Shown: positions 41,926 through 57,136 of the stretch, piece by piece
How the letters are laid out: each line of letters starts with the position of its first letter
Numbering within the stretch: the stretch's first letter is position 1
DNA from: Maritimibacter alkaliphilus
GTDB lineage: Bacteria; Pseudomonadota; Alphaproteobacteria; Rhodobacterales; Rhodobacteraceae
NCBI RefSeq assembly: GCF_019801605.1
Contig: NZ_JAHVIT010000002.1
Location: 744,001-808,000, forward strand
Direction: 5' to 3'
Length of the DNA: 64,000 nt
The notes under the pieces: model-generated
Database searches by the model: none
What the model was told of the DNA's origin: nothing
The model's input: the letters and a program-made list of their open reading frames with translations, nothing else
Translations under genes and position numbers: made by a program

Positions 41926-43749
41926 ATGACCCCGACTTCCCCCCTCACCGCCGCCGCTGCCCACAGCGCCGGTGCCTCGATCCGTGCCTATTTCTCCCTC
42001 ACCGAACACCGCGCGCCCGCGATCAGCGGCGATGGTGGCCGGATGGTCTGGCTCTCCAATGCCAGCGGCTTCGCGCAGGTCTGGGAGGCGGACGGGCAGG
42101 GCGGCGCCGTGCAGCTGACCCGGATGGACGAGCCGGTGGGCAAGCTCAGCTTCGTGCCCGGCAGCCGCGACCTGATCCTGACCACGGACCGGGGCGGGAA
42201 CGAGCGGCACCAGATCTGGCACCTGCGCGACGGGGATACGGTACCCGAGCCGCTGACCGACGCGCCCCGCGTGGTGCACGGCTTTGGCGCGATGTCCGCG
42301 GATGGCGGGCTGATGGCCTATGCCGCGAATGACCGCGACCCGGCCAAGATGGACGTGCTGGTCCGCGATATGGCCAGCGGAACGGTGCGCCGGGTCTGGC
42401 AGGGGCAGGGCTTCGGCGAGGTGCTGGCGGTCTTTCGAAATGGTGCGTCGCTGCTGGTGAAAACCTCGGAGGCGTCGAGCCGCCAGACCCTCTGGCGCAT
42501 CCGGATCGCCGATGGCACCGCGACGGAGGTCTTCCCCGGTGACGGCCCGACGGAGTACCGGACCATCAAGCTTCTGAAAGACGGGGTGACGATGCTGGCG
42601 CTCTGCGATCGCGGGCGTGACCGGGCGGCGCTGATGCGGGTCTCGCTGGAAAGCGGCGCGGCGAAGGTGCTGGCTGGCTACGACGCGGCAGATATCGACG
42701 GTTTCGCGCTCAGCGGGGATGAGGCCACCGCCGCCCTGCTGGTGAACCGCGACGGGCTGGACGGGATCACGCTGCTCGACATCGCGCAGGGCACGCTCAC
42801 CGATCTGCCCGCGCCGCACCCCGGTGTCCTCTCGGTGCCGGTCTTCCATCCGGCGAGTGGCGCGCTGGTCTTCTCGGCCGAGGGCGCCTGCGACGCGCCC
42901 GCGCTCTGGACGCAGGCCCTCGACGGCAGCCCTGCCACGGCGCTCGCCAAGACCCGGCCCGAGGGGCTGCCCGCCTTCCGCGAGCCTTCCCTCACCAGCT
43001 ACACCAGCTTCGACGGGCAGCAGGTGCCCTGCTTCCTCTACGATCCCGAAGGCCCCGCGCCGGAGGGCGGCTGGCCGGTCATGGTGATCGTCCACGGCGG
43101 GCCGGAGTTGCAGTGGCAGCCGACCTTCCGCGCCGATGTGCAGTGGATGCTGGCGCAGGGTATCCGGGTTGCGGCGCCCAACGTGCGCGGCTCAACCGGC
43201 TATGGCCGCCAGTGGCACGAGATGGACGACCTTGGCAACCGGATGGACAGCGTGAAGGACCTGCTGGCCCTGCGCGATTGGCTGGCGGCGCAGCCCGAGG
43301 TGGACGCCGCGCGGATCGGCGTCTTCGGACGCTCCTACGGCGGCTTCATGGTGCTGGCGGCGATGGTCGAGGCGCCGGAAGCCTGGCGCATGGGCGTGAA
43401 CTTCTACGGGATCGCCAACTTCTCGACCATGATGCAGACCACCGGCCCGTGGCGGCGGGACCTGCGCGCGGCGGAATACGGCGACCCGGAGGAGATGGCC
43501 GAGGCGCTGGAGGTCTTCTCGCCCATTCACCGGATCGAGAAGATCGCCGCGCCCCTGCTGCTGGTCCATGCCTTCGAGGATCCGCGCGTGCCGATTGGCG
43601 AGACGGAAATGGTCCATTCCTGCCTGACCGGGCTGCAACGGGACGTGGAGTACCTGCGTATCGCCCACGAAGGCCACGGATTCGCCCGGACCGAGAACCG
43701 GCTGACCGTGCACGAACGTCTGGCCGACTTCATCACCCGAACCCTCTGA
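41926..43749 (+). CDS. S9 family serine peptidase (prolyl oligopeptidase/acylaminoacyl-peptidase type)
   Basis: A 607-residue protein with an N-terminal beta-propeller (about 20-345, WD40-like repeats such as LSNASGFAQVW) and a C-terminal alpha/beta-hydrolase domain. The catalytic triad is visible: Ser470 in GRSYGGF, Asp552 in HAFEDPRVP and His584 in HEGHGF. MVIVHGGPE supplies the oxyanion region. There is no signal peptide, so it acts on peptides in the cytoplasm. It lies upstream of the M28 peptidase and peptide transporter genes and may share their physiological role, but has its own upstream region and a 161-base gap after it. Confidence 0.9.
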   Translation: MTPTSPLTAAAAHSAGASIRAYFSLTEHRAPAISGDGGRMVWLSNASGFAQVWEADGQGGAVQLTRMDEPVGKLSFVPGSRDLILTTDRGGNERHQIWHLRDGDTVPEPLTDAPRVVHGFGAMSADGGLMAYAANDRDPAKMDVLVRDMASGTVRRVWQGQGFGEVLAVFRNGASLLVKTSEASSRQTLWRIRIADGTATEVFPGDGPTEYRTIKLLKDGVTMLALCDRGRDRAALMRVSLESGAAKVLAGYDAADIDGFALSGDEATAALLVNRDGLDGITLLDIAQGTLTDLPAPHPGVLSVPVFHPASGALVFSAEGACDAPALWTQALDGSPATALAKTRPEGLPAFREPSLTSYTSFDGQQVPCFLYDPEGPAPEGGWPVMVIVHGGPELQWQPTFRADVQWMLAQGIRVAAPNVRGSTGYGRQWHEMDDLGNRMDSVKDLLALRDWLAAQPEVDAARIGVFGRSYGGFMVLAAMVEAPEAWRMGVNFYGIANFSTMMQTTGPWRRDLRAAEYGDPEEMAEALEVFSPIHRIEKIAAPLLLVHAFEDPRVPIGETEMVHSCLTGLQRDVEYLRIAHEGHGFARTENRLTVHERLADFITRTL

Positions 43750-43882: not shown

Positions 43883-43895
43883 TTTTGTATGACAA
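43883..43895. promoter_or_regulatory. Candidate GntR operator in front of the M28 peptidase operon
   Basis: TTTTGTATGACAA contains TTGT-ATG-ACAA, a short inverted repeat of the GntR/FCD operator type. It matches 11 of 13 bases of the element at 52228-52240 next to the GntR gene. It lies 15 bases before the M28 start, so binding would block initiation. Confidence 0.65.
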
Positions 43896-43910
43896 TATGG
43901 AAATAGACTG

Positions 43911-45689
43911 ATGCCGAAGGATTCTGTGATCGGGGCCATCTCGTCCGAGCGGGCGCGCAAGCATGTCGAGGTGATCTGCAAGACGATCCCCCACCGCGCG
44001 GCCGGGGCCGAGAACGGCAAGCGGATGGCGGAATATTCCCGCGATGCGCTGCTGGCGGACGGGATCGCGGATGCCACGATCTTTGACCTGCCCGCCGTCG
44101 TCTCCTTCCCCGAACCCGCCGGGTTCAAGGTCACGGCCACCGGCGAGGACATCCCTGCCAACACGCTGGGCCACAGCACCGAGACCGGCCCTGAGGGCAT
44201 CACCGGCGAGCTGGTCTATGTCGGCTCCGGCGCCTTCGAGGACTACGAAGGCCTCGACGTCACGGGCAAGATCATCCTGACCGAACTGTCCTATGCGCCC
44301 GGCCGCCACGAGAAGCAGCGCATCGCCGCGCTGAAGGGCGCCATCGGGGCGGTGATGATGAACTGGGGCGGACCGGAGAACCCGGCGGTGCCCATGGGCT
44401 CGGTCAAGCCGAACTGGGGCTCGCCCACGCCCGAGGGCATGCGGGACGAGATGCCCACGATCCCCTGCATCGGCATTGCCCGCGTCGACGGGCTGCGCCT
44501 GAAGGCCGAGGGCGAGAAGGCCCCGGTCGAGATCTGGATGCGCCCGGTGGTCGAGAACGGCTGGCGCCCGGTGCAGATCACCGTGGGCGAAGTCGCCGCC
44601 CCCGAGACCTCGCCCGAGGCGGAGGATTTCGTGCTGATCGGCGGGCATCAGGACAGCTGGCCCGGCGAGGCCGCCACGGACAACGCCGCCGGCAACGCCT
44701 GCATGCTGGAACTGGCCCGCGTGATGAACGAGAACCGAGACCAGCTGCGCCGCGGTGTCGTCTGCGGCTTCTGGACGGCGCATGAGACCGGCACCATGGC
44801 GGGCTCCGCCTGGTACGCGGATCATGAATGGGCGCGGTTGCGCGACCATGCGGTTGCGTATCTCCAGATCGACCAGCCGGCCTGCGTCGGCACCGATACG
44901 CTTTGGGCCGCGGGCTCCAACGCCGAGCTGAAGACCTTCCACGAAAGCGTCGCGGCCGAGCATCTGGAGGGCCGCGGGCAGCTCTGGCACCGCGCCGCGA
45001 AACATGGCGACAGCTCCTTCTTCGGCCTTGGCATCCCGGCCTTCGCGGGCAACGGCTCCTTCACCGAGGACGAGCTGAAGGCCACCGCGCTGGCAACGCT
45101 GGGCTGGTGGCACCACTCGACCGAGAACACGCTCGACAAGCTCGACTGGGACTGGATGCAGACCCACCTCGAGATCTATGCGGCTTGGGTCTGGGAACTC
45201 TGCACCGCGCCGGTTCTGCCTTTCACCTTCACGCCCGTCGCGGGGCAGGTGAGCGAGCGTCTGGAAGAGCTCTCGGCCCCCGGCAAGCTGATCGGGCTGG
45301 ACGCCGCCGAAGCCGCCGCCGCGCGCTTTGCCGAGGCCGCCGCCGCCTTCGACGCCCGGGCCAAGGCCGCGGCCGAGGCCTTCGACGGTTCGGACGCCGC
45401 CGAGGCGATGGCCAAGCGGATCAACACCTGCATGAAGCGCCTGTCGCGCATCCTCGTCCCGCTGCAGAGCACCTCTGTCGGCAAGTACGGTCACGACACC
45501 TACGGCTACACGCCGCAAGGCTCGATGATCCCGATCCTCTACGACCTGCCCGAGCTGGCCACGCTCGAAGAAGGCGAGGATTTCTGGATGCTGCGCACGA
45601 AACTCGTCCGCAACCGGAACAAGGTCATCGACGGGCTCGACGAAGCAACAACCCTGATCGCCGACACGCTGGAAATGATCGGCGACTGA
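43911..45689 (+). CDS. M28-type metallopeptidase with PA domain and altered active site
   Basis: A 592-residue cytoplasmic protein (no signal peptide) with a protease-associated domain inserted at about 75-215 and an M28 peptidase core. Metal-ligand positions are His246 and Asp248 (GGHQDSW), Asp257 (ATDNAAG) and a late His in WWHHSTENTLDK. The usual Glu-Glu pair (general base plus ligand) reads FWTAHETGTMAGS, so His291 replaces the first Glu while Glu292 is kept. A C-terminal helical domain (about 440-592) follows. It is first in the operon with the peptide transporter and is preceded by a GntR-type operator. Confidence 0.83.
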   Translation: MPKDSVIGAISSERARKHVEVICKTIPHRAAGAENGKRMAEYSRDALLADGIADATIFDLPAVVSFPEPAGFKVTATGEDIPANTLGHSTETGPEGITGELVYVGSGAFEDYEGLDVTGKIILTELSYAPGRHEKQRIAALKGAIGAVMMNWGGPENPAVPMGSVKPNWGSPTPEGMRDEMPTIPCIGIARVDGLRLKAEGEKAPVEIWMRPVVENGWRPVQITVGEVAAPETSPEAEDFVLIGGHQDSWPGEAATDNAAGNACMLELARVMNENRDQLRRGVVCGFWTAHETGTMAGSAWYADHEWARLRDHAVAYLQIDQPACVGTDTLWAAGSNAELKTFHESVAAEHLEGRGQLWHRAAKHGDSSFFGLGIPAFAGNGSFTEDELKATALATLGWWHHSTENTLDKLDWDWMQTHLEIYAAWVWELCTAPVLPFTFTPVAGQVSERLEELSAPGKLIGLDAAEAAAARFAEAAAAFDARAKAAAEAFDGSDAAEAMAKRINTCMKRLSRILVPLQSTSVGKYGHDTYGYTPQGSMIPILYDLPELATLEEGEDFWMLRTKLVRNRNKVIDGLDEATTLIADTLEMIGD

Positions 45690-45746
45690 CCCAACTCCGG
45701 CGGGGCGTCTCCCCTCCCGCCGGGCCAACAAGGAGAACGACACGAC

Positions 45747-47324
45747 ATGACATTCCGCACCCTTCTTCTGGCCGCGACCACTGCGCTCGCCACGGCCACG
45801 ATCTCCGTCTCGGCGCAGGCCCAGACCGAGATCGTCTGGGGCGAAGGCACGCCCAAGGGCCTCGACCCGCACGTCGTCTATGACGTGCCGATGCAGCTCT
45901 ACATGCTGAACGCCTACGACAGCCTCTACCGCTACATCGGCAACCCGCCGGAGCTGAGCAACTGGCTGGCCGCAAGCCACACCGTCAGCGAAGACGGCCT
46001 GACCTGGGAATTCACCCTGAAGCCGGGCATCACTTTCACCGACGGCTCCCCGATGACCTCGGAAGACGTGGTCTATTCGTTCCAGCGCCTGCTGGAGATC
46101 GGCAAAGGCCCGTCGGGCGCCTTCAAGCCCGTGCTGAAGCCGGAAAACGTTTCCGCCGTGGACGAGCTGACCACCCGCTTCGTCCTCGACAAGCCCTACG
46201 CCCCCTTCCTGTCGACGATGCCGCTGGTCGCGATCCTGAACAAGGACGTGGTGCAGGCGCATGAAACCGATGGCGACATGGGCGCCGCGTGGCTCTCGAC
46301 CCATCAGGCCGGCTCGGGCTCCTACATCCTGGATGAGGCCACCTACAAGCCGCTGGAAAACGCCGACTTCAACCGCAACGTCGATCACTTCTACGGCTGG
46401 GACGACAACGCGAACCCCGTCGACGTCGTGCACGTGCCGACCTTCACCGAAACCTCGACCCGGGTTCTGGCGCTGCTGCGCGGTGACACCGACGCGACCG
46501 ACGGCTACCTGCCGACCGACCAGGTGGAGCGCATCAAGGCCGCCGACGGCGTCCGCGTGCAGAGCGACGAATCCATGCGGATCATGCTGATCCGGATGAA
46601 CAACCAGAAGCCGCCCTTCGACAACGTAAACTTCCGTCGCTGCGTCAGCTACGCCTTCAACTACGATGGTTTCAACGAGGTCGTCCTCGGCGGCCTGGTG
46701 AAGCGCAACGTGGGCCCGCTGCCCTCGAACCTCTGGGGCGTGGACGAAAGCGTCGAAGGCTACAGCTACGACCTCGACAAGGCGCAGGAGTTCTGTGACC
46801 TCGCCCGCGAAGAGGGCGCCGACATCGACCGCAAGATCGAGATCAAGATCCTCTCGGGCCTCGACCAGACCACCCAGGCCGCGCAGGTCATGCAGCAGGG
46901 TCTCGACGAGCTTGGCCTGAACGTCGAAGTCGTGGGTGATACCTGGGCGAACCTCGCCACCTCGACGGGCACCGTTGAATCCACCCCCGACATGTGGGTG
47001 CACTGGGTCTCGACCTACTTCGTCGACCCGGAAAACTGGATTGGCCAGATGTATTCGAGCCAGTTCAACGGCACCTGGAAAGCGTCGTCCTGGTACGTGA
47101 ACCCCCACGTCGACGACCTGCTGCAACAGGCCCGCGACGTGACCGATCAGGCAGAGCGTGAAGTGCTCTACAAGGAAGCCTATCGCACCATCGTGGACGA
47201 GGCGGCCGACGTCTGGATCTACAACACCGTCGCCCTGCGCGGTCTCAGCGATCGCCTCGACGGCTTCAAGTTCTCCCCCGTCGGCTCTGGCGCCGACTTC
47301 CGCTGGCTCTCCGTCAAAGAGTAA
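45747..47324 (+). CDS. Peptide ABC transporter substrate-binding protein (SBP family 5)
   Basis: A 525-residue periplasmic protein with a signal peptide (cleavage about after SAQAQ). The family 5 signature region runs SHTVSEDGLTWEFTLKPGITFTDGSPMTSEDVVYSFQRL, and the C-terminal region has the YKEAYRTIVDEAADVWIYN segment common in DppA/OppA proteins. It binds di- or oligopeptides (or related amides). AAGGAGA precedes the ATG. A GC-rich hairpin lies between this gene and the permease genes, which would favour excess binding protein. Confidence 0.92.
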   Translation: MTFRTLLLAATTALATATISVSAQAQTEIVWGEGTPKGLDPHVVYDVPMQLYMLNAYDSLYRYIGNPPELSNWLAASHTVSEDGLTWEFTLKPGITFTDGSPMTSEDVVYSFQRLLEIGKGPSGAFKPVLKPENVSAVDELTTRFVLDKPYAPFLSTMPLVAILNKDVVQAHETDGDMGAAWLSTHQAGSGSYILDEATYKPLENADFNRNVDHFYGWDDNANPVDVVHVPTFTETSTRVLALLRGDTDATDGYLPTDQVERIKAADGVRVQSDESMRIMLIRMNNQKPPFDNVNFRRCVSYAFNYDGFNEVVLGGLVKRNVGPLPSNLWGVDESVEGYSYDLDKAQEFCDLAREEGADIDRKIEIKILSGLDQTTQAAQVMQQGLDELGLNVEVVGDTWANLATSTGTVESTPDMWVHWVSTYFVDPENWIGQMYSSQFNGTWKASSWYVNPHVDDLLQQARDVTDQAEREVLYKEAYRTIVDEAADVWIYNTVALRGLSDRLDGFKFSPVGSGADFRWLSVKE

Positions 47325-47332
47325 GCGGCACT

Positions 47333-47361
47333 GCCCGGCCGGTTCCCCTTCCCGGCCGGGC
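47333..47361 (+). terminator. Intercistronic hairpin after the binding-protein gene
   Basis: GCCCGGCCGG (47333-47342) and CCGGCCGGGC (47352-47361) form a perfect 10-pair stem with a 9-base loop, followed by CTTTTC. Such hairpins often attenuate transcription or protect mRNA ends, so that the binding protein is made in excess over the membrane subunits. Confidence 0.7.
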
Positions 47362-47411
47362 CTTTTCTGCACGACCCGACAGGCCCCTCCCCAAAGGCAC
47401 CGATCCTCCCC

Positions 47412-48422
47412 ATGCTGTTATTCCTGATCCGCCGGCTTCTGCTGATCATCCCCGTCCTCTTCGGCCTGCTGCTGCTGACCTTCTTCATGCTGCGGCTGGG
47501 TGGCAACGATCCCGCGGCCATCATGGCCGGGGACAACGCCACGCCCGAGATGATCGCCCGCATCCGCGAGGAGCTGGGCCTGAACCAGCCGCTGGTGGTG
47601 CAGTTCTGGGACTACTTCCTCAGCGTTCTGCGCGGGGATTTCGGGGTCTCCCTCTTCTCCCAGCGGCCGGTGAGCGAGGACATCCTCGACAAGCTGCCGG
47701 CCACGCTGGAACTGACCCTCGTCGCCCTCGTCATCGCCACGGTCCTCGGCATCCTGCTGGGCACGCTGGCCGGTGTCTGGCGCAACTCGATCTTCGACCA
47801 CACGGTGCGGATCGTCTCGGTGGCCGGCCTGGCCACGGCCTCGTTCTGGTTCGCGATCATGCTGCAGCTGGTCTTTGCCATGGGCTTCGAGATCCTGCCG
47901 CTGCGCGGGCGGCTGCCCACGGGCATGGCGCCGCCGCCGGACATCACCGGCATGTATATCTTCGACAGCCTCGTGACCGGGCATTTCGCCACCATGTGGC
48001 AGGCGGTGCTGCACATCATCATGCCCGCTGTCACGATCTCGCTCGGCGGTGTCGCGACGGTGGCGCGCTTCACCCGCTCCGCCGTGGTGGCCTCGCTGCA
48101 GAGCGAATACGCCAACTACGAACAGGCCGTGGGCTATCCCCGTCGCCGCGTGGTCTTCCCCTATGTGCTGCGCAACTCGCTGGTGACGCCGGTGACGCAG
48201 GTCGGCCTGCTCTTCGGTGGCTTCATCTCCAACGCCGTCGCCGTGGAGGCCGTCTTCGACTGGCCCGGCCTCGGCTCCTACCTCGTGCAGGCGATCTTCA
48301 CCTCCGACTACCAGGTGGTGCTGGCGGTGACGCTGGTGATCGGCGCGATCTATGGCGTGGTGAACATCCTCGTCGACATGACCCAAGGCTTGCTCGACCC
48401 CCGCGTCGCCGAGAAAATGTGA
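47412..48422 (+). CDS. Peptide ABC transporter permease (DppB type)
   Basis: A 336-residue permease with six membrane helices. The N-terminus (LFLIRRLLLIIPVLFGLLLLTFFMLRL) and GLNQPLVVQFWDYFLSVLRGDFGVSL are characteristic of DppB/OppB, and the cytoplasmic coupling loop reads SEYANYEQAVGYPRRRVVFPYVLRNSL. It forms the translocation pore with the next gene's product. The start lies 50 bases past the intercistronic hairpin. Confidence 0.94.
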   Translation: MLLFLIRRLLLIIPVLFGLLLLTFFMLRLGGNDPAAIMAGDNATPEMIARIREELGLNQPLVVQFWDYFLSVLRGDFGVSLFSQRPVSEDILDKLPATLELTLVALVIATVLGILLGTLAGVWRNSIFDHTVRIVSVAGLATASFWFAIMLQLVFAMGFEILPLRGRLPTGMAPPPDITGMYIFDSLVTGHFATMWQAVLHIIMPAVTISLGGVATVARFTRSAVVASLQSEYANYEQAVGYPRRRVVFPYVLRNSLVTPVTQVGLLFGGFISNAVAVEAVFDWPGLGSYLVQAIFTSDYQVVLAVTLVIGAIYGVVNILVDMTQGLLDPRVAEKM

Positions 48423-48432
48423 AGGCTCCCGC

Positions 48433-49269
48433 ATGCTGATCCTCAAGAAATTCCTGCGCGATGTCCCCGCCGTCCTGGGCGCGCTCATCGTCCTGGCCGC
48501 GGTCATCCTCGCGATCTTTCCCGAGCTGCTGGTCGACAACGTCGACCGCATAAACCGCGGCAACATCATCATGCGGCTGCAGCCGCCCTCGGCCGACATG
48601 CCGTTCGGCACCGATGACCTTGGCCGCAACATCTTTGAACGGGTGATCGTGGGCACACGCTCGGCGCTGACGATCTCGCTCTTCGTGGTGGTCGTCTCGA
48701 TGATCGTGGGCGTGCCGCTCGGCCTGATCGCGGGCTACCGCAGCGGCTGGGCCTCCAGCACGATCATGCGGGTGACCGATGTCTTCCTCGCTGTGCCGCA
48801 GCTGATCCTCGCCATCGCGATCGCGCAGCTCCTTGGCCGGGGCCAGATCAGCGCGATGATCGCCCTCGCGGTGACCTACTGGCCGTTCTTCACCCGCACC
48901 GTCTATGCCGAGACGCAGAAGGTACGTGCCTCGCTCTTCGTCGAAGCGCTGGAGGGCTACGGCGCCTCCAAGACCCGGATCATGCTGTTCCACATCCTGC
49001 CCAACGTCGCGGCCCCCGTCATCGTGCGGGCCACGGTGGGCATGGGCTTCGTGATCCTCACCGCCGCCGTGCTGGGCTTCCTCGGCGTGGGCGCGGTGCC
49101 GCCGGCGCCGGACTGGGGTCTGCAAATCTCGGAAGGACGCAAGTACCTGCCCGAGCAATGGTGGTACGCAACCTTCCCCGGCCTCGCGATCCTGCTGCTG
49201 GTGCTGGGCTTCAACCTGCTGGGCGACGGTCTGCGCGACCTCGTCGATCCCCGACTGCGGAGGTCCTGA
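48433..49269 (+). CDS. Peptide ABC transporter permease (DppC type)
   Basis: A 278-residue permease of the DppC/OppC family with five to six helices. PFGTDDLGRNIFERVIVGTRSALTISL is the family's N-terminal signature and FVEALEGYGASKTRIMLFHILPNV is the EAA-type coupling loop. It begins 10 bases after the DppB-type stop and ends 2 bases before the first ATPase gene. Confidence 0.94.
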   Translation: MLILKKFLRDVPAVLGALIVLAAVILAIFPELLVDNVDRINRGNIIMRLQPPSADMPFGTDDLGRNIFERVIVGTRSALTISLFVVVVSMIVGVPLGLIAGYRSGWASSTIMRVTDVFLAVPQLILAIAIAQLLGRGQISAMIALAVTYWPFFTRTVYAETQKVRASLFVEALEGYGASKTRIMLFHILPNVAAPVIVRATVGMGFVILTAAVLGFLGVGAVPPAPDWGLQISEGRKYLPEQWWYATFPGLAILLLVLGFNLLGDGLRDLVDPRLRRS

Positions 49270-49271
49270 AC

Positions 49272-50264
49272 ATGAGCGACGCAATCCTCTCCGTCCGTGA
49301 CCTGAAACTCTCGGTCAAGGGTGACGCCGGTCTGGCGCAGATCCTCGACCACGTCGATTTCTCGATCCACCCCGGCGAGGTGCTGGGGCTGGTGGGCGAA
49401 AGTGGCTGCGGCAAGTCCACCCTGATCCGGTCGATCATGGGGCTGCCGCCCAAGGGCGCCCGGATCGAAAGCGGCTCGGTCACCTTCAAGGGGCAGAGCC
49501 TGATGGACCCGAAGATCGCGCAGGGCCTGCGCGGTCGCGAGATCGGCTTCATCCCGCAGGACCCGTTCCAGGCCTTCAACCCGGTTTTCACCGTGGGTGA
49601 CCAGATTCTCGAGATCCTGCGCTGGAGCGGGCTGCCCGACGACCCCAAGGGCGGGCGCTACACCAAGGAGCTGCGCGCCAAGCACCGCGCCCGGCTGATC
49701 GAGGTGCTGCACGCCGTGCAGATCCCCGACCCGGAAGAGGCGCTGACCCGCTTCCCGCACCAGTTCTCGGGCGGGCAGCGGCAGCGGATCCTGATCGCCG
49801 GGGCCCTTGCCTCGCGGCCTTCGGTGATCCTCGCGGACGAGCCGACCACCGCGCTCGACGTGACCACGCAGATGCAGATCCTGCGCCTGCTGCGCGAACT
49901 GGCCAAGGACTTCAACGTGGCGATGCTCTTCGTCACCCACGATTTCGGCGTGGTGGCCCAGATCTGTGACCGGGTGACGGTGATGTACGCGGGCCAGACG
50001 GTCGAGACCGGCACCACCCGCCAGATCATCGACGCGCCGCGTCATCCCTACACCGGCATGCTGATGGCCTGTCACCCCGAGCGCGCGACCGAGATCACCG
50101 GCATCCCCGGGCAGGTCTCCTCGCCGCTGACGCCGCCGCCGGGCTGCCGCTTCGCCCCGCGCTGCCCGCGCGCGACCGAGGCCTGCACCACCGCGCGGCC
50201 CGGCCTCGACCGGCGTGCCGATGGCCGCCGCATCGCCTGCATTCACGAAAAGGAAGTCGCATGA
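49272..50264 (+). CDS. Peptide ABC transporter ATP-binding protein (DppD type)
   Basis: A 330-residue ATPase: Walker A GESGCGKST, signature FSGGQRQRILIAGALA, Walker B VILADEPTTALD, switch His in THDFG. The C-terminal oligopeptide-transporter extension carries the cysteine-rich PGCRFAPRCPRATEAC that in DppD-type ATPases binds an iron-sulfur cluster. The start ATG 49272 follows the permease stop directly. The stop overlaps the next ATPase gene as ATGA. Confidence 0.94.
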   Translation: MSDAILSVRDLKLSVKGDAGLAQILDHVDFSIHPGEVLGLVGESGCGKSTLIRSIMGLPPKGARIESGSVTFKGQSLMDPKIAQGLRGREIGFIPQDPFQAFNPVFTVGDQILEILRWSGLPDDPKGGRYTKELRAKHRARLIEVLHAVQIPDPEEALTRFPHQFSGGQRQRILIAGALASRPSVILADEPTTALDVTTQMQILRLLRELAKDFNVAMLFVTHDFGVVAQICDRVTVMYAGQTVETGTTRQIIDAPRHPYTGMLMACHPERATEITGIPGQVSSPLTPPPGCRFAPRCPRATEACTTARPGLDRRADGRRIACIHEKEVA

Positions 50265-51241
50265 CGCGCCCCCTTCTGGAAACCGTAGACCTCAAGAAAC
50301 ACTACGGCGGCACGCGCAAGCTTCTGCAGCGGCCCAAGCCGCTGGTGAAGGCCGTGGACGGGATCGACCTGCAGCTGGCCCCCGGCGAAGTGCTGGGGCT
50401 GGTCGGCGAAAGCGGCTGCGGCAAGTCCACCCTGGCCCGCACCCTGCTGGGGCTGGAGCGCGAGACCGAGGGCACGATCACCTTCGACGGGCAGGACGTG
50501 GGGGGGCGCGGCGCCTCTGCCGCACGCGAGATCCGGTCCGACATCCAGTACGTGCATCAGGATCCGGGCGCGGCGCTCGATCCGTGGTGGCGCATCGGCG
50601 ACACGCTGCACGAGACGCTGAAGATCCACGGCGTCACCGACAAGGCCGAGCGTGACGCCCGGATCGAGGAGATGCTGCTGGCCGTGGGGCTGAACGACAG
50701 CTTCCGGCGCCGCTATCCGCATGAACTCTCGGGCGGGCAGCAACGTCGCGTCGGGCTGGCGCGGACGCTTTCGCTGCGGCCCCGGCTGGTGATCCTCGAC
50801 GAGCCGACCTCGGGCCTCGACCTGTCGGTGCAGGCCACGGTGCTGAAGCTGATGCTGGAACTGCGGGCGCAATACGACCTGACCTATCTCTTCATCAGTC
50901 ATGATCTGTCTGTGGTGGAGCGGCTCTGCGACCGGGTGGCGATCATGTACCTTGGCCGGATCGTCGAGATCGGCGCGGCAGAGCAGGTCTTTTCCAAGCC
51001 CGCGCATCCCTACACGCAGGCGTTGCTGGCCTCGGCCCCAACGCTGGAGCGTCAGGAGGCGGGCAAGCCCATCGAGGGCGACCCGCCGAGCCCGACCAAC
51101 CGGCCCGAGGGCTGTCCCTTCCACCCGCGCTGCCCGATGGCAGAGGCGGCCTGCCGGCAGGTGGTGCCGGATCTCGCGGACCTGGCAGCGGCCCATCGTG
51201 TCGCTTGCCCGCCCGCACTGCGGACGCTGACCCCGCAGTGA
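50261..51241 (+). CDS. Peptide ABC transporter ATP-binding protein (DppF type)
   Basis: A 326-residue ATPase with Walker A GESGCGKST, signature LSGGQQRRVGLARTLS, Walker B LVILDEPTSGLD and switch His in SHDLS. The C-terminal GCPFHPRCPMAEAAC again supplies the cysteines of the DppF-type extension. It pairs with the preceding ATPase to drive the peptide importer and is the last gene of the operon, converging on the GntR gene. Confidence 0.94.
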   Translation: MTRPLLETVDLKKHYGGTRKLLQRPKPLVKAVDGIDLQLAPGEVLGLVGESGCGKSTLARTLLGLERETEGTITFDGQDVGGRGASAAREIRSDIQYVHQDPGAALDPWWRIGDTLHETLKIHGVTDKAERDARIEEMLLAVGLNDSFRRRYPHELSGGQQRRVGLARTLSLRPRLVILDEPTSGLDLSVQATVLKLMLELRAQYDLTYLFISHDLSVVERLCDRVAIMYLGRIVEIGAAEQVFSKPAHPYTQALLASAPTLERQEAGKPIEGDPPSPTNRPEGCPFHPRCPMAEAACRQVVPDLADLAAAHRVACPPALRTLTPQ

Positions 51242-51254
51242 CAGGGCGACCGGA

Positions 51255-51284
51255 ACGGGGCGCAGCCGGGCGGGCGCGCCCCGT
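51255..51284. terminator. Hairpin between the converging transporter and GntR genes
   Basis: ACGGGGCGC (51255-51263) and GCGCCCCGT (51276-51284) form a 9-pair stem with a 12-base loop. No T-run follows. Position between converging ends supports a terminator role. Confidence 0.45.
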
Positions 51285-51375
51285 CTCCGGGAGCGGACCG
51301 GGGGATGTCGGTCTCGATGGATGTCTCGATCTCTGTGCAGGCAGGCGCAGAGCGGTGCCGCGAGACCTCAGACGC

Positions 51376-52113
51376 TCAGGCGCCTTCTTCCTCGTTGAAC
51401 CGTTCCAGCGCGTCGCGGGCGGCGTTGGCCACGTAGTGCCGCATGGCCGCATCCGCCGCATCCGCATCGCGCGTCACCAAGGCCTCGATGATCGCGTCGA
51501 TCTCGTCCAGCGAGTCGTGGATGCGGGTCGGGTTTTCCATGGCGAGGAACCGCAGGCGCGAAATCCGCGCCAGCAGGCTGCGCAGCAGGTCGCCGGTCAC
51601 CTGAAGGCCGGAGACGGCGATCATGTGCTCGTTCAACTGCACCATCATCCGCACCAGCCCGATCAGGTCGCGCTTCTCGGCGCCGGTCTTGTGGGCCCGG
51701 TGCAGGGCCATGAGCATCGCGTCCTCGCCCTCCGGTGCCTGCTCGCAATAGGCGCGGGCAAGGCGGGCTTCCAGCTCGGCGCGCAGGCCGAAGATCTCGG
51801 CCGCCTCGGCTTTGGTCAGCCGTGTGACGGCGGGGCCGCGGTGGGTGGTCACCGTCACCAGCCGCTCGTTCTCCAGCGTGCGCAGCGCCTCGCGGACCGA
51901 GGTGCGCGACGCGCCGAGCGCCTCGCAGATCTCGCGCTCCACCAGCCGCTGGCCGGGTTTCAGACGGCCCTCGATGATCGCGGTGCGCAGGTTCTCGACC
52001 ACCGCCTCGCGGACGGTCTTGGGCTGCACAAGAGCAATGCTCAGCCCGTCGGCCAGCGTGTTCTGCTCGGCGAGCGTTTCGGTCAGGGCGGCGTGGGTGG
52101 TGATCTCGGTCAA
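51376..52113 (-). CDS. GntR family (FCD domain) transcriptional regulator
   Basis: A 245-residue regulator. A winged helix-turn-helix (about residues 33-98: LRTAIIEGRLKPGQRLVERE, ASRTSVREALRTLENE) is followed by an all-helical FCD effector domain whose His residues (MVQLNEHM, MRHYVANAA) fit the metal or ligand site of the family. No ATG is available; the longest start is a TTG at 52113, with a GTG at 52029 as an alternative that still keeps the DNA-binding domain. It lies between the peptide transporter and the D-aminopeptidase and is likely to repress both, given the shared 13-base element. Confidence 0.88.
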   Translation of the reverse strand: MTEITTHAALTETLAEQNTLADGLSIALVQPKTVREAVVENLRTAIIEGRLKPGQRLVEREICEALGASRTSVREALRTLENERLVTVTTHRGPAVTRLTKAEAAEIFGLRAELEARLARAYCEQAPEGEDAMLMALHRAHKTGAEKRDLIGLVRMMVQLNEHMIAVSGLQVTGDLLRSLLARISRLRFLAMENPTRIHDSLDEIDAIIEALVTRDADAADAAMRHYVANAARDALERFNEEEGA

Positions 52114-52227
52114 ACGGGGCCTGTCGGTCTGGGGCCGGGCCCTTGCGGGCGGCGGCAGGCCCGGCAGAGGGCGGGCACTGGAACGGAATACAGGGCCGCG
52201 GACCGGGTCGATTCGAGGCCTCTTGAA

Positions 52228-52240
52228 TTATCATACAATA
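52228..52240. promoter_or_regulatory. Candidate GntR operator between the GntR and D-aminopeptidase genes
   Basis: The minus-strand reading TATTGTATGATAA matches the element at 43883-43895 at 11 of 13 bases. An adjacent CAATATGACAAA (52236-52247) adds a second, overlapping half-site. The location, 115 bases upstream of the GntR start and 74 upstream of the D-aminopeptidase start, suits control of both divergent genes. Confidence 0.65.
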
Positions 52241-52313: not shown

Positions 52314-53840
52314 ATGATGAATGGCAAGGCGTTCCAATGGTCTGCGGCAGAAGCCGCCGCATCCGAAGCGGTGGCGCAGTGGTCGGCGGACGGCCCGGGC
52401 GGGGCCATCGTCGGCTTCGACCGCGACGGGCTGCGTTTTGCCGTCTCGGGCGGGCTGGCGGATCTGAACCACGGGCTGCCCTTCACCCCCGACACCGTGT
52501 CGCGCTGTGCCTCGGTCACCAAGCACCTGCTCTGCGCCATGGTGCTCTCCCACCCCGAGGCAATCGGGTTGGACGATCCGCTCGGCAAGCATCTGCCGGA
52601 GTTGGCCCCGGCGCCGGCGGCGGTCACCGTGGCGCGCGCGCTCTCCATGACGGGCGGGCTGCCCGACACGCGGGAGAGCCTGTCGCTGCTGGGGCTGCCG
52701 GCCGCCGCGCCTTCCGGGGCGGAGGCGCTGATGGCCTGCCACGCCCGCATGACCGGCCTGAACTTCGCGCCCGGGGCCGAGGTCTCCTATTCCAACGCCG
52801 GCTACCGGCTGGTGGAGGAGGCGCTGAAACGGCGTGGCCTGACGCTGGCGGGCTTCGTGGCGGAGGCGATCAACGGCCCTCTCGGGACGCACTTTGCCGT
52901 GCCGGAGCATTGGGGCGACCCGGTGCCGGGCCTTGCGCCGGGCTACTGGTACGATGGCGTCCGGTGGCAGCCGGGCGGGCAGGGGATGCATCTGAGCGCG
53001 GCAGGCAGCCTTGCCGCCTCGGCCACGGACATGGCCCGCTGGATCCGGGCGCTGCTGGCCGGGCAGGGGGCCTTGGCCGGGCTCTGGGACGGGATGTCGG
53101 CGCGCCGCAGCCTGCGTGACGGCAGCGAGACGCCCTATGGCCTCGGCCTCTATCGCGTGCCGCTTGGCGTCCACCTGCTGATCGGTCACAGCGGGGCGCA
53201 GGCGGGCTACCGCGCGCAGTTCCTGACGCTGCCCGAGGCCGGTGTGGGCGTCGTGGTGCTGTCGAACCGGGACGACGTGAAGGCGCTTTCGCTGGCACTC
53301 GCCACCTTCGCGGGCCTGCTGGATGCGCCGATGCCGACGCCGGTCGTACCGGGCACCTTGCCCGAGGGTCTTTATGTCGACGAGGACGGCCCGCGGTGGG
53401 TCGAGGTGAAGGCCGCCTCGCTGGTGCACATGGGCACCGAGGAGGCGCTCTATGACGGCGGCGACGGCTGGGCCGAGAGCTGCTCCGGCACGGCGCCCAT
53501 GCGCCTGCGCTGGACCGGGGCGGCGCTGGAGGGCACCATCGGCCATGCGCCCTGCCGCCTGTTGCCCGTGCAGGGGGCGGCGCTGCCTGACGGGCTCGAC
53601 GGGCACTGGCATGTGCCGGGGGAGGGGGCGGTTCTGGAGATCCGGGACGGCGCCGTGATCTGGGGCATCGGCCCGGCGCGGACCGTGGCGCCCCTGACGC
53701 CGCTTGGCGGCGGGCGGGCGCTCTTCACCCTGACCGATGGGGCGTCGCGCCGCCCCGTCTGCTTGCACAAGACCGGGGCGGACAGCCTGACGCTGGGCCT
53801 CAACCGGGCGCGGGCGGTGCCCTACGTCCGGTTGAGCTGA
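52314..53840 (+). CDS. dap: D-aminopeptidase (serine beta-lactamase-like, S12)
   Basis: A 508-residue penicillin-recognising enzyme. Ser67 and Lys70 form the SxxK motif (SVTK), Tyr159 is in YSNAGY, and the third motif is HSG with His292 instead of the KTG of beta-lactamases. Spacing of these four residues matches that of the Ochrobactrum anthropi D-aminopeptidase, which I recall as Ser62/Lys65/Tyr153/His287 in a 520-residue protein, and the about 180 C-terminal residues fit its two beta-barrel domains. It removes N-terminal D-residues from peptides. There is no signal peptide. A strong TAGGAGGT site precedes the ATG. It is divergent from the GntR gene. Confidence 0.87.
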   Translation: MMNGKAFQWSAAEAAASEAVAQWSADGPGGAIVGFDRDGLRFAVSGGLADLNHGLPFTPDTVSRCASVTKHLLCAMVLSHPEAIGLDDPLGKHLPELAPAPAAVTVARALSMTGGLPDTRESLSLLGLPAAAPSGAEALMACHARMTGLNFAPGAEVSYSNAGYRLVEEALKRRGLTLAGFVAEAINGPLGTHFAVPEHWGDPVPGLAPGYWYDGVRWQPGGQGMHLSAAGSLAASATDMARWIRALLAGQGALAGLWDGMSARRSLRDGSETPYGLGLYRVPLGVHLLIGHSGAQAGYRAQFLTLPEAGVGVVVLSNRDDVKALSLALATFAGLLDAPMPTPVVPGTLPEGLYVDEDGPRWVEVKAASLVHMGTEEALYDGGDGWAESCSGTAPMRLRWTGAALEGTIGHAPCRLLPVQGAALPDGLDGHWHVPGEGAVLEIRDGAVIWGIGPARTVAPLTPLGGGRALFTLTDGASRRPVCLHKTGADSLTLGLNRARAVPYVRLS

Positions 53841-53850
53841 TCGGGGCGTC

Positions 53851-55185
53851 CTAGCCGAGCAGGGCCCGCTGGCGCAGCGGGGCCGCGATCGCGGGCACCG
53901 CGCCGAAGGGGGCGACGCCCGGCGGCATCGCCGGCGCATGGGTCGAGGCGAAGGCCGGCTTCGACGCGGGGCGCGGGGTATTGGCGGGTGCCTGTGGTGC
54001 CTTGCGCCCGCGGCGGGCCGACCGGGCCGAGGCCTCGCGGCCCCAGGCCAGCATCAGCTGCAGCGCCAGACCCAGCGGCGGCAGCACGATGGCGGGCCAA
54101 AGCAGGTGCGGATGGGTCTGTACGACGGTCTGGAACAGCAGCGCCAGCAGCGTGCCCGCGGCAAAGACCTGCAGCCCGTGGCGGCCCATCAGGCGCAGCG
54201 GCGCGGTCCAGCGGCTCTCGGCCACGGTCACAACGAAGGGCAGGCAGGACAGCACGTAGGCCAGCGACAGCGCATGGGCGAAGCGCGGCAGGGCGAGGAA
54301 GGTCTTGTCCTGGTTGGTGATGTGGAACGGGACGCCGCTGTCGCGCAGCCAGGTCATCGCCGCATCCATCCGCGGTCCCATGCCGGGCAGGTAGAGCCAG
54401 GCCAACGAGAACAGCAGGTAGCCGACGCAGGCCCAGAAGAGGCCGCGATACACGGGCACGAAGCGTTCACCGCGCCGCATGAAGATGCCGGTCAGCAGGC
54501 CGACGGTGAAGAGCGCCTGCCAGGCGAAGGGGTTGAAGAACCAGCCGCCCTCGTTCGGGAAATTCGGCAGGTTCAGCCGCAGGAGCCCGGTGACGAACCA
54601 CAGCGTCAGCGAGGCCCCGAGCGTCGCGTAGGGAAACCTCTCGGCCAGCGGGATGATCGCGGGCAGCACGAAGAGAAGCACCGCATAGGCCGGCAGGATG
54701 TTCACGTAGCCCAGCTGGTGCGTCATCAGCGGGATGCCGATGACGGCCTGCAACGGGGTCTCCACCAGCGGCGCGAGGTTGATCTGCTGCAGCAGTTCCG
54801 GCGCGCGGAACATCAGCACACCGCCCGCGAAGATCGCGATGGCGGTCACGGTCAGCAGCACGTGCACCACGTAGAGCAGCCAGGCCCGGGACCAGAGCGG
54901 TGCCATGGCCTGCCAGATCCCCGTGCGTTCCACCCGCTCGGGCAGGAAGCGCCCGGAATAGGCGAGGCCCGCGGCGATGCCGGACATCAGGAAGAAGGCC
55001 TCGGCCGCATCGGAGAAGCCGATGTTGCGGACGGTGCCGTATTCATAGGGATTGCCGGGCACGTGGTCGATGAAGATCATCGCGAGCGCCAGACCGCGGA
55101 ACATGTCGATCCGCAGGTCGCGCTTGGCCTTCACCGGGCCTTGGGTGCCGGGCATGGCGATCAGCTTTGCCTCAGGCTGTGACAT
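53851..55185 (-). CDS. opgC: Osmoregulated periplasmic glucan succinyl/acyltransferase OpgC
   Basis: A 444-residue polytopic protein with about ten membrane helices. RDLRIDMFRGLALAMIFIDHVPGNPYEYGTVRNIGFSDAAEAFFLMSG is the OpgC N-terminal signature, carrying the catalytic His-like residue and Arg of membrane acyltransferases. It substitutes the periplasmic glucans, with succinate in Rhodobacter sphaeroides. The ATG at 55185 has AAGGAGG five bases upstream and overlaps the opgH end by 14 bases; an upstream GTG is less likely. The C-terminal 60 residues are Pro/Ala-rich and probably cytoplasmic. Confidence 0.9.
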   Translation of the reverse strand: MSQPEAKLIAMPGTQGPVKAKRDLRIDMFRGLALAMIFIDHVPGNPYEYGTVRNIGFSDAAEAFFLMSGIAAGLAYSGRFLPERVERTGIWQAMAPLWSRAWLLYVVHVLLTVTAIAIFAGGVLMFRAPELLQQINLAPLVETPLQAVIGIPLMTHQLGYVNILPAYAVLLFVLPAIIPLAERFPYATLGASLTLWFVTGLLRLNLPNFPNEGGWFFNPFAWQALFTVGLLTGIFMRRGERFVPVYRGLFWACVGYLLFSLAWLYLPGMGPRMDAAMTWLRDSGVPFHITNQDKTFLALPRFAHALSLAYVLSCLPFVVTVAESRWTAPLRLMGRHGLQVFAAGTLLALLFQTVVQTHPHLLWPAIVLPPLGLALQLMLAWGREASARSARRGRKAPQAPANTPRPASKPAFASTHAPAMPPGVAPFGAVPAIAAPLRQRALLG

Positions 55186-56977
55186 GGGTGCCTCCTTCAC
55201 CTGTGTCGGACTCGGGTGCGGCCTGCGGCTCCAGCGTGGTCGGCCAATTGGCGGCGACCCCGTGGTAGAGCGTCACGACACGGGCGGCCTCCAGCTCGCC
55301 CGGAACGCGGAACAGGCGCGAGCGCGCGGGCCGCGAGGACCAGGCCAGCAGCACCGGCGCGGCCATCATCGGCACGCAGACCGGCAGCAGCCACAGCGCC
55401 AGCGTCGGCGCGAACTGTGTCAGCGCCGCCAGCACGAGGGTGCCCCAGGTCACGATCCAGCCGCTTGCGGCCCAGGCCTCGCGCAGGCTCAGGCGGCCTT
55501 CGCCGCGCTGGTTCGCAGGCCAGCCGCCGTCGCGGCCCATCAGGACCTGCAGCACGGCGCGGGACTGGTACATCAGCATCACCGGCGCCATCAGCGAGGA
55601 CAGCAGCAACTCGCCCAGGACCGAGCGGAAGGTGGTGAAGGCGCCGCCGAAGCCCTTGGTGCGACGGGTCAGCATCGCGTGCACGAGGATCAGGAACTTG
55701 GGCAGGATCAGCAGGCCGATCACACCGATGCCCAGCCCGACGATCTCCCGCGTGCGGTCCGAGGGGAAGGAGGGGAACAGCTGGTAGGGATCGGGGAAGT
55801 AGTTCGGCAGCGGCGCGGTCACGAAGGCCACGAGGCTGACGATCAGGAAGGCCGCCCAGATCAGCGAGACGATGTAGGCGGTGATCCCCTGCAGGAAGAC
55901 GAAGCGGCTCCAGAACCGCAGGCCGGGGGCCGTCAGCAGGCGGGAGTGCTGCAGGTTGCCCTGGCACCAGCGGCGGTCACGCTTGGCATAGGAGACGATG
56001 TTTTCGGGGCCTTCCTCGTAGGAGCCGGTCAGGTCCTCGTCGAGCCGCACGATCCAGCCTGCCCGGGCCAGCAGCGCGGCCTCGACATAGTCATGGGACA
56101 GGATGTGCCCGCCGAAGGGCGGACGGCCCTTCAGCTCGGGGAGGCCGCAGCTTTCGGCGAAGGCGCGCACGCGCACGATGGCGTTGTGGCCCCAGAACGG
56201 ACCGGTATCGCCCTGCATGTGCGCCAGCCCGCGGGAGAAGACCGGCGAGAAGAAGTTCGACGAGAATTGCATCGCGCGCCCGAAGAGCGATTGCGCGCCC
56301 ACGATCTGCGGCAGGGTCTGCAGCAGGCCGAGGCGCGGCTCCGCCACCATGCGGCGGACCATCTCGGCGACGGTTTCCCCTTCCATCAGGCTGTCCGCGT
56401 CGAGGATCACGGCAAACTCGTATGCGCCGCCGGAGCGGGTGATGAATTCCTCGATGTTGCCCGCCTTGCGGCCCCAGTTGTCGGTGCGGCGGCGGTAGTA
56501 GATGCGGCCCGCGCCCTCGCGGTCGCGGTGCAGCTGGTCGAACCACTGGCGCTCGACCCGGGCCAGCGTGTCGTCACGGGTGTCCGAGAGGATGGCGAAA
56601 TCGACCGCGCCGGTCAGCCCGGCCTCGGCAAGGGAGATGTCCATCGCCGCCACCCGGGAGAAGGTTGCGCGGGCGTCCTCGTTGCAGATCGGCACGAGGA
56701 TGACGGTGCGGTGGTTGCGCGGGTCGATCCCCGACAGGTCGCCGGCGCCGATGCGGCGCGGGACCAGCCCCAGAAGCGCCTGCGCGGCGCCCCAGGCCAG
56801 CCAGGAGGTCGTCATCCAGATCAGCAGCGCGCGCAAGACGTCCGTGGTCTGAAGCCCGTCCTGGATGGAGGCCTCGAAGACCAACCCCGCCGCGCCGAGC
56901 CCGAGCAGGCCCGCGAAGGCGATCGCCGTCAGACGCGACGCTAAGGTATTGGCTTTCAACGGTGCACGGTCCGGCAT
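55172..56977 (-). CDS. opgH: Glucan glucosyltransferase OpgH
   Basis: A 601-residue membrane GT2 enzyme that polymerises glucose from UDP-glucose into the backbone of osmoregulated periplasmic glucans. The catalytic domain (about 105-350) shows ILSDTRDD, the DADS metal-binding motif, LDEDLTGS, and KRDRRWCQGN, the equivalent of the QxxRW product-binding motif. Helices occur at about 25-75 and at five or six positions after residue 380. The ATG at 56977 has GGGGAG upstream. It lies between opgI and opgC, with 159 bases to the former. Confidence 0.93.
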   Translation of the reverse strand: MPDRAPLKANTLASRLTAIAFAGLLGLGAAGLVFEASIQDGLQTTDVLRALLIWMTTSWLAWGAAQALLGLVPRRIGAGDLSGIDPRNHRTVILVPICNEDARATFSRVAAMDISLAEAGLTGAVDFAILSDTRDDTLARVERQWFDQLHRDREGAGRIYYRRRTDNWGRKAGNIEEFITRSGGAYEFAVILDADSLMEGETVAEMVRRMVAEPRLGLLQTLPQIVGAQSLFGRAMQFSSNFFSPVFSRGLAHMQGDTGPFWGHNAIVRVRAFAESCGLPELKGRPPFGGHILSHDYVEAALLARAGWIVRLDEDLTGSYEEGPENIVSYAKRDRRWCQGNLQHSRLLTAPGLRFWSRFVFLQGITAYIVSLIWAAFLIVSLVAFVTAPLPNYFPDPYQLFPSFPSDRTREIVGLGIGVIGLLILPKFLILVHAMLTRRTKGFGGAFTTFRSVLGELLLSSLMAPVMLMYQSRAVLQVLMGRDGGWPANQRGEGRLSLREAWAASGWIVTWGTLVLAALTQFAPTLALWLLPVCVPMMAAPVLLAWSSRPARSRLFRVPGELEAARVVTLYHGVAANWPTTLEPQAAPESDTGEGGTHVTA

Positions 56978-57136
56978 GTTGCAAAACTCCCCTGAACGCC
57001 CGGCAACGGGCGCCATGCCGGCGCGGCCGGCGTCATCCCCAATGGTGAAGCGCGCCGGTGAGAGCTGCGCTGCAAAGCGATGTGGCGTGGCTGCCCTGAC
57101 GGTCCGCTGCCGGGCCGCCGGGATCAGCCGGGCAGG

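Follow-up and report, generated by a model that had tools for sequence, protein, structure and literature searches.

A predicted FadR-type regulon combining an M28-importer module with an S12 hydrolase in Maritimibacter alkaliphilus

A gene block in the alphaproteobacterium Maritimibacter alkaliphilus probably forms an inducible catabolic regulon, in which a FadR-type regulator would govern both an M28-importer module that occurs in distant lineages and an S12 serine hydrolase added here. The block lies in a 64,000-nucleotide stretch of contig NZ_JAHVIT010000002.1 (C2; positions 744,001 to 808,000), part of a 4.9 Mb genome. This whole stretch is referred to as the window, and coordinates are those of the window unless another locus is named. 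Sequence comparison supports the gene content of the block, the coupling of a predicted operator to the regulator, and the patchy distribution of the genes. The parts are of known kinds in a new combination, and the one real oddity is the active site of the M28 protein. No published description of this gene system was found at the level of titles and abstract openings.

Gene content and predicted operators

Six genes on the + strand run in the order M28, SBP_bac_5, permease B, permease C, ATPase D and ATPase F. The first encodes an M28-family protein with a PA domain (43911..45689; PF04389 1.8e-17, PF02225 2.4e-07), followed by an SBP_bac_5 periplasmic binding protein (45747..47324; PF00496 8e-70), Opp/Dpp-type permeases B (47412..48422; PF00528, PF19300) and C (48433..49269; PF00528 1.4e-32), and importer ATPases D (about 49272..50264, start assumed) and F (50261..51241), both with PF00005 and PF08352. 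After ATPase F, the gene for a GntR/FCD regulator of the FadR subfamily lies on the - strand (51376..52113, TTG start assumed), divergent from the gene for an S12 serine hydrolase distantly related to D-aminopeptidase (52314..53840, + strand; PF00144 2e-40). The regulator joins a GntR helix-turn-helix to an FCD domain, with PF00392 (4.4e-18) and PF07729 (4.4e-16) both above their cut-offs. An earlier note on this DNA, made from the sequence alone, had described a block of M28, complete five-gene importer, GntR/FCD regulator and S12 genes, and Pfam families and coordinates confirm that description.

Like ABC importers of the Opp/Dpp/Nik type, the transporter has an SBP_bac_5 protein, two BPD permeases and two ATPases with oligo_HPY. 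Unlike them, its proteins score under the NCBIfam cut-offs examined, and the importer is therefore given no named substrate. A simple hydropathy scan finds a hydrophobic N-terminal stretch in the binding protein and no strongly hydrophobic N-terminus in the M28 protein, the S12 protein or a neighbouring S9 hydrolase, which agrees with the earlier claim that the hydrolases carry no signal peptide. The further claim that import precedes cleavage is plausible from these N-termini. If they are a sound guide, the hydrolases are cytoplasmic and the importer would act first.

The block contains two predicted operators. O1 (43883..43895, + strand; TTTTGTATGACAA) contains the core palindrome TTGT-ATG-ACAA at 43885-43895 and stands 15 nt 5' of the M28 start. 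O2 (52228..52240, - strand; TATTGTATGATAA) reads TTGT-ATG-ATAA and lies between the GntR and S12 genes. The parts of PMC4494728 covered here give the FadR-subfamily consensus as TKGT and ACMA boxes, typically with 3 nt between GT and AC, and O1, whose GT and AC boxes are 3 nt apart, fits this published form. The window regulator shares with the FadR-subfamily GntR regulators described there the FCD domain, the palindromic form of the site, and the location of sites both between divergently oriented genes and ahead of a structural operon; its operon is not named in the passages covered.

The earlier note had pointed to the two elements because they match at 11 of 13 bases. Their positions, strands and two differences (2/13) are as it reported, but the match is at chance level. 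When both intergenic regions were replaced by first-order Markov versions, the best ungapped 13-mer match reached at least 11/13 in 33/60 trials, and the real regions share a further, GC-rich 11-of-13 match. The element pair alone therefore proves nothing, and the match was rejected as evidence by itself. With two mismatches allowed, a degenerate pattern derived from the sites themselves gave at least two matches in 3/100 shuffles. TTGTATGAYAA occurs three times in the source genome, two of these inside the block. In Pseudooceanicola nanhaiensis, O2 is unchanged although the surrounding intergenic region has other changes. A promoter-like site at 52256-52227 reads towards the GntR gene (0.7 such sites expected by chance), and O2 overlaps its second hexamer, so that autorepression of the GntR gene would fit.

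Coupling of the operator to the regulator

The case for a regulon comes from comparison among genomes. Operators were scored in the 200 nt before M28 at 18 loci, where M28 starts were computed and may be off by a few codons. All the M28 loci that show a same-clade regulator (5/5) have a 10- or 11-of-11 operator match, whose end lies 10-15 nt upstream of the computed start. One further locus (L049) has the operator on a stretch too short to show a regulator, and the remaining 12/12 loci have no operator match of 9 or more; among these, L030 has a GntR protein of 31% identity. The earlier proposal that a single element links both units to the GntR regulator is thus well supported as a prediction from sequence, since the element recurs just before M28 wherever a same-clade regulator is visible.

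Regulators 44-46% identical to that of the window lie near the M28 operon in Acuticoccus and in two genomes of family f16. TTGTCTGACAA occurs in exactly one copy in each of three genomes (G461, G638 and G703), always before M28, and CTGTCTGACAA is found once on the 80-kb Acuticoccus plasmid, again before M28. In G048, the regulator relative is located elsewhere in the genome; its operon has a divergent promoter region, and the genome's single copy of TTGTATGACAA is found there. A close counterpart of the block is the plasmid cluster of Acuticoccus sp. I52.16.1 (NZ_CP094832.1), which has M28, five importer genes, a same-clade regulator and the operator. This cluster differs in adding a racemase, two M20 genes and hydantoinase A/B, and in having no S12 homologue in the 25.8-kb stretch. 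At L046 10881-10891, TTGTCATACAA sits in a divergent promoter region that has an operon with a regulator relative on one side and an AA_synth-family gene (PF06684) on the other.

The two elements in the window might instead be a chance resemblance, with the regulator controlling its own gene only. The chance-level 11-of-13 match and the lack of motif enrichment across the genome are consistent with this, but the operator-regulator coupling (5/5 versus 0/12 loci) and the occurrence of the site once per genome at M28 make it very unlikely.

In the regulon that we consider probable, the FCD regulator would bind TTGT-N3-ACAA directly upstream of M28 and in the region separating its own gene from S12. 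It would most likely repress both units and be released when its FCD domain binds an imported substrate or a carboxylate product. The Opp/Dpp-type importer would take up a small amide-bonded compound, on which the presumably cytoplasmic M28 and S12 enzymes would then act. M28, importer, regulator and operator would together be a module common to distant alphaproteobacteria, and the S12 gene, from a family often near D-amino-acid genes, would have been placed under the same operator in this lineage. We infer the order of cleavage, and also that the substrate has a D- or racemisable residue; the main candidates are two, D-residue peptides and hydantoin-like or N-acyl amides.

Several observations weigh against the regulon. 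The motif shows no genome-wide enrichment (11 sites versus 15 for the reversed control), nor any over 22 genus genomes (25 versus 18) or in the source genome with one mismatch allowed (11 versus 12). The degenerate operator pattern was fixed only after the sites had been seen, and three of the loci counted as regulator-less (L006, L023 and L027) come from contigs so short that a regulator may have escaped notice. Because the window and the P. nanhaiensis locus (L004) represent sister species, and the f16 loci are closely related to one another, the coupling reflects about three independent lineages plus G048. Additionally, O2 has AT instead of AC on one side, which leaves one half-site imperfect, and a promoter scan before M28 gave no promoter-like site. 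The operator signal lies in the position of the sites, not in their number. With the operator recurring in distant lineages, what began as a hunch from one sequence becomes a testable regulon.

The M28 and S12 hydrolases and their possible substrates

The M28 domain scores above the PF04389 cut-off and keeps H246, D257, E292, D321 and H401/402, which we take to be the metal ligands. At the general-base position, the protein has His291 (motif AHETG), where 3/3 printed PDB-chain alignments have Glu. His occupies this position in 18/18 M28 relatives examined, and the Glu that follows it is kept in 13 and replaced by Ser in five distant ones (L009, L017, L018, L029 and L030); all 18 were retrieved with the window protein as query and are a biased sample of M28. 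The window protein thus lacks the general-base Glu of M28 metallopeptidases, and the earlier designation as a peptidase is unproven because this Glu is His in all 18 relatives.

The predicted model of the M28 protein is weak (mean pLDDT 54.7). Its best Foldseek matches are M28B proteins, namely GCPII/III and NAALADase-like entries that share the presumed metal-ligand pattern, and several of the GCPII entries are titled E424M or E424A inactive mutants. From the alignments, His291 presumably corresponds to Glu424 of GCPII. The window protein also differs from GCPII in having no signal or anchor. The GCPII-like layout is only a hint, given the low confidence of the model.

Of 16 mapped M28 loci, eight adjoin an Opp-type importer and six contain an Asp/Glu racemase homologue. 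The ten close relatives (at least 54% identity) have an adjacent importer in six cases, a racemase in three, M20 in three, hydantoinase A in two and M81 in two. L006 and L024 have none of the reference neighbours, and in five further genomes importer genes of about 59-73% identity follow M28. The source genome also encodes an M28 paralogue of 38-40% identity (L025; G000:C1:1405011-1406735), which is accompanied by importer genes of its own, by an Asp/Glu racemase and by two PuuE-like deacetylases. A Pantoea relative of 34% identity has M24, M20, racemase, amidohydrolase and deacetylase genes in its locus, and a D-aminoacylase gene lies ~8.6 kb away.

These neighbourhoods bear on a substrate class of hydantoin-like, ureide or N-acyl/N-carbamoyl amino acids, with M28 acting as an amidohydrolase or related enzyme and S12 as an amidase. 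The racemases, the M20, hydantoinase A and M81 genes of the close relatives, and the hydantoinase A and B genes of Acuticoccus argue for such a pathway, as do PuuE-like deacetylases in three loci and beside the paralogue (under the PuuE-family cut-off where scanned, including the paralogue's two) and allantoin genes within 8 kb of one S12 orthologue (L041). Against it, no racemase, hydantoinase or M20 is found among the ten window genes scanned, racemase and hydantoinase occur in 0/11 loci of the S12 set, the binding-protein family is uninformative on substrates, and several M28 relatives have no such neighbours. On balance we regard this assignment as doubtful. We propose, quite tentatively, that these M28 proteins are a subfamily with new chemistry, which would keep the metal-site pattern with His as general base (and Ser for the next Glu in a distant branch), would be accompanied in some cases by dedicated importers, Asp/Glu/hydantoin racemases and a FadR-type regulator of their own, and would degrade chiral amides not assigned to any pathway. 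The subfamily is annotated as peptidase, yet its active site deviates from the rule for M28. If it does act on chiral amides or ureides, 'M28 family peptidase' annotations beside Opp importers need changing.

The S12 protein reaches 92 bits on the NCBIfam D-aminopeptidase model NF009622, which has a cut-off of 443, and its assignment as a D-aminopeptidase equivalog was rejected. All nine aligned S12 orthologues match this model (the L044 orthologue, broken in two pieces, was left out), and with the best E-value (3.8e-27) close to that of the window protein (3.1e-26), none of them can near 443 bits. The SXXK, YXN and HXG motifs are present, with S67/K70, Y159/N161 and H292/G294 invariant in 9/9 aligned sequences. 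For the Ochrobactrum anthropi D-aminopeptidase (1EI5, also S12), the portions of PMC3347556 covered give the catalytic residues as S62/K65/Y153/H287, so that the same Ser, Lys, Tyr and His are spaced 92/133 in the window protein and 91/134 in the O. anthropi enzyme, a near-identical spacing that the earlier note had called a match. A profile of the nine orthologues aligns to residues 21-473 of 520 of 1EI5 at 1e-27, extending past the catalytic domain and leaving the last part unaligned. The beta-lactamase domain is the only one that Pfam detects in the window protein; in the nine orthologues it reports this domain throughout, plus one weak stray match. The predicted S12 structure has a mean pLDDT of 35.5.

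S12 neighbourhoods were compared at eight orthologue loci, seven of 31 plasmid records plus G353, with Paracoccus and Neorhizobium loci supplying the reference proteins; L047 and L048, which hold S12 relatives of 32-33% identity, have no reference neighbour and were left out. M19 dipeptidase occurs in four loci, D-amino-acid transaminase in four and S58/DmpA in three, giving at least one of them in 5/8, and a Paracoccus-type binding protein with permeases is found in 4/8. All three enzymes are absent from L039, L041 and L044; L044, from Ketogulonicigenium vulgare, has S9, M20 and importer genes near S12. In L038, L042, L043 and L045, varying subsets of M19 dipeptidase, importer, LysR, D-amino-acid transaminase and S58/DmpA genes were noted beside S12. 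Such contexts are a hint that alphaproteobacteria have an unnamed route for D-residue peptides.

None of the 11 S12-set loci has an M28, racemase or hydantoinase homologue, and of the 16 M28 loci only L004 has S12. In the loci examined, the two arms therefore meet only in the window and L004. The S12 proteins of the window and L004 (18418-19938) are 88% identical and the M28 and importer proteins 97-99.7%, so S12 diverges faster or was exchanged.

The earlier note had interpreted the whole block as serving peptides that begin with a D-residue, for instance peptidoglycan-derived or non-ribosomal ones; on this reading, S12 would remove the D-residue and M28 would trim the rest. We consider this possible, though short of probable. 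The S12 alignment to 1EI5, its conserved catalytic residues and the D-amino-acid genes in five of the eight contexts speak for this reading and for the 'D-aminopeptidase' label, and the low S12 score and the three contexts that lack such genes against both. For the M28-importer arm, homologues of D-amino-acid transaminase, M19 and S58 are found in 0/16 M28 loci and M28 lacks its usual general base, so that the idea of a D-peptide regulon finds partial support in the S12 arm and none in the other.

A third copy of the operator bears on the same question. This TTGTATGACAA-type site (G000:C2:1125335-1125345; L003 1501-1511) stands ~90 bp upstream of a gene for an S11 D-alanyl-D-alanine carboxypeptidase (PF00768 3.1e-61). 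P. nanhaiensis retains it amid some changes in the flanks, and the S11 upstream region aligned with no other fetched site. All the evidence for the peptidoglycan link of the earlier note comes from this copy; as it is known from just two species, sisters to each other, it is no more than a lead. Among the marine users of diaminopimelic acid, the parts of PMC9602339 covered list an isolate that matches P. nanhaiensis, in line with D-residue substrates.

Distribution and edges of the block

The M28 protein is 98% identical to that of P. nanhaiensis and is rare among relatives. Counting the source genome, matches occur in 2/22 genus genomes, at least 2/295 sampled family genomes (one a 33% relative) and at least 7/385 class genomes; 3/17 genomes in the family of G461 also have one. 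In the phylum sample the count is at least 1/398, the source genome alone, with no further genome among the candidates scored; in these large samples scoring was confined to the three or four best candidates of each genome, and some matches may have been missed. A pattern scan of 84,980 species gave four loci. The regulator is found in at least 2/295 genomes at E 1e-40, and S12 in at least 5/385 genomes at 1e-50 and in 31 plasmid records at 1e-40. Ordinary nutritional uptake and hydrolysis of L-peptides, for which M28, S9 and Opp-type importers are common parts, is unlikely in view of this rarity, the changed M28 active site and the contexts of the S12 gene.

Downstream, the block is flanked by an OpgC gene, which is kept together with an adjacent glycosyltransferase gene (both at 53851-57016) in 5/5 other genus genomes (L096-L100). 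S9, M28, GntR, S12 and the CydB-like gene are near OpgC in 0/5 of these 20-kb stretches, and weak ATPase matches (26-31%) occur near it in three. The right edge of the block is therefore a break point; the five stretches show no clean empty insertion site. The genes on the other side of OpgC differ among the five genomes.

Upstream, the block is flanked by the S9 (prolyl oligopeptidase-type) hydrolase gene (41953..43749, + strand; PF00326 8.5e-43), which lies 5' of O1 and whose start codon is not fixed. Its membership of the system is uncertain: it may belong because the K. vulgare homologue adjoins an S12 orthologue. That homologue (L044 4787-6613), annotated as two overlapping genes, also lies near M20 and importer genes.

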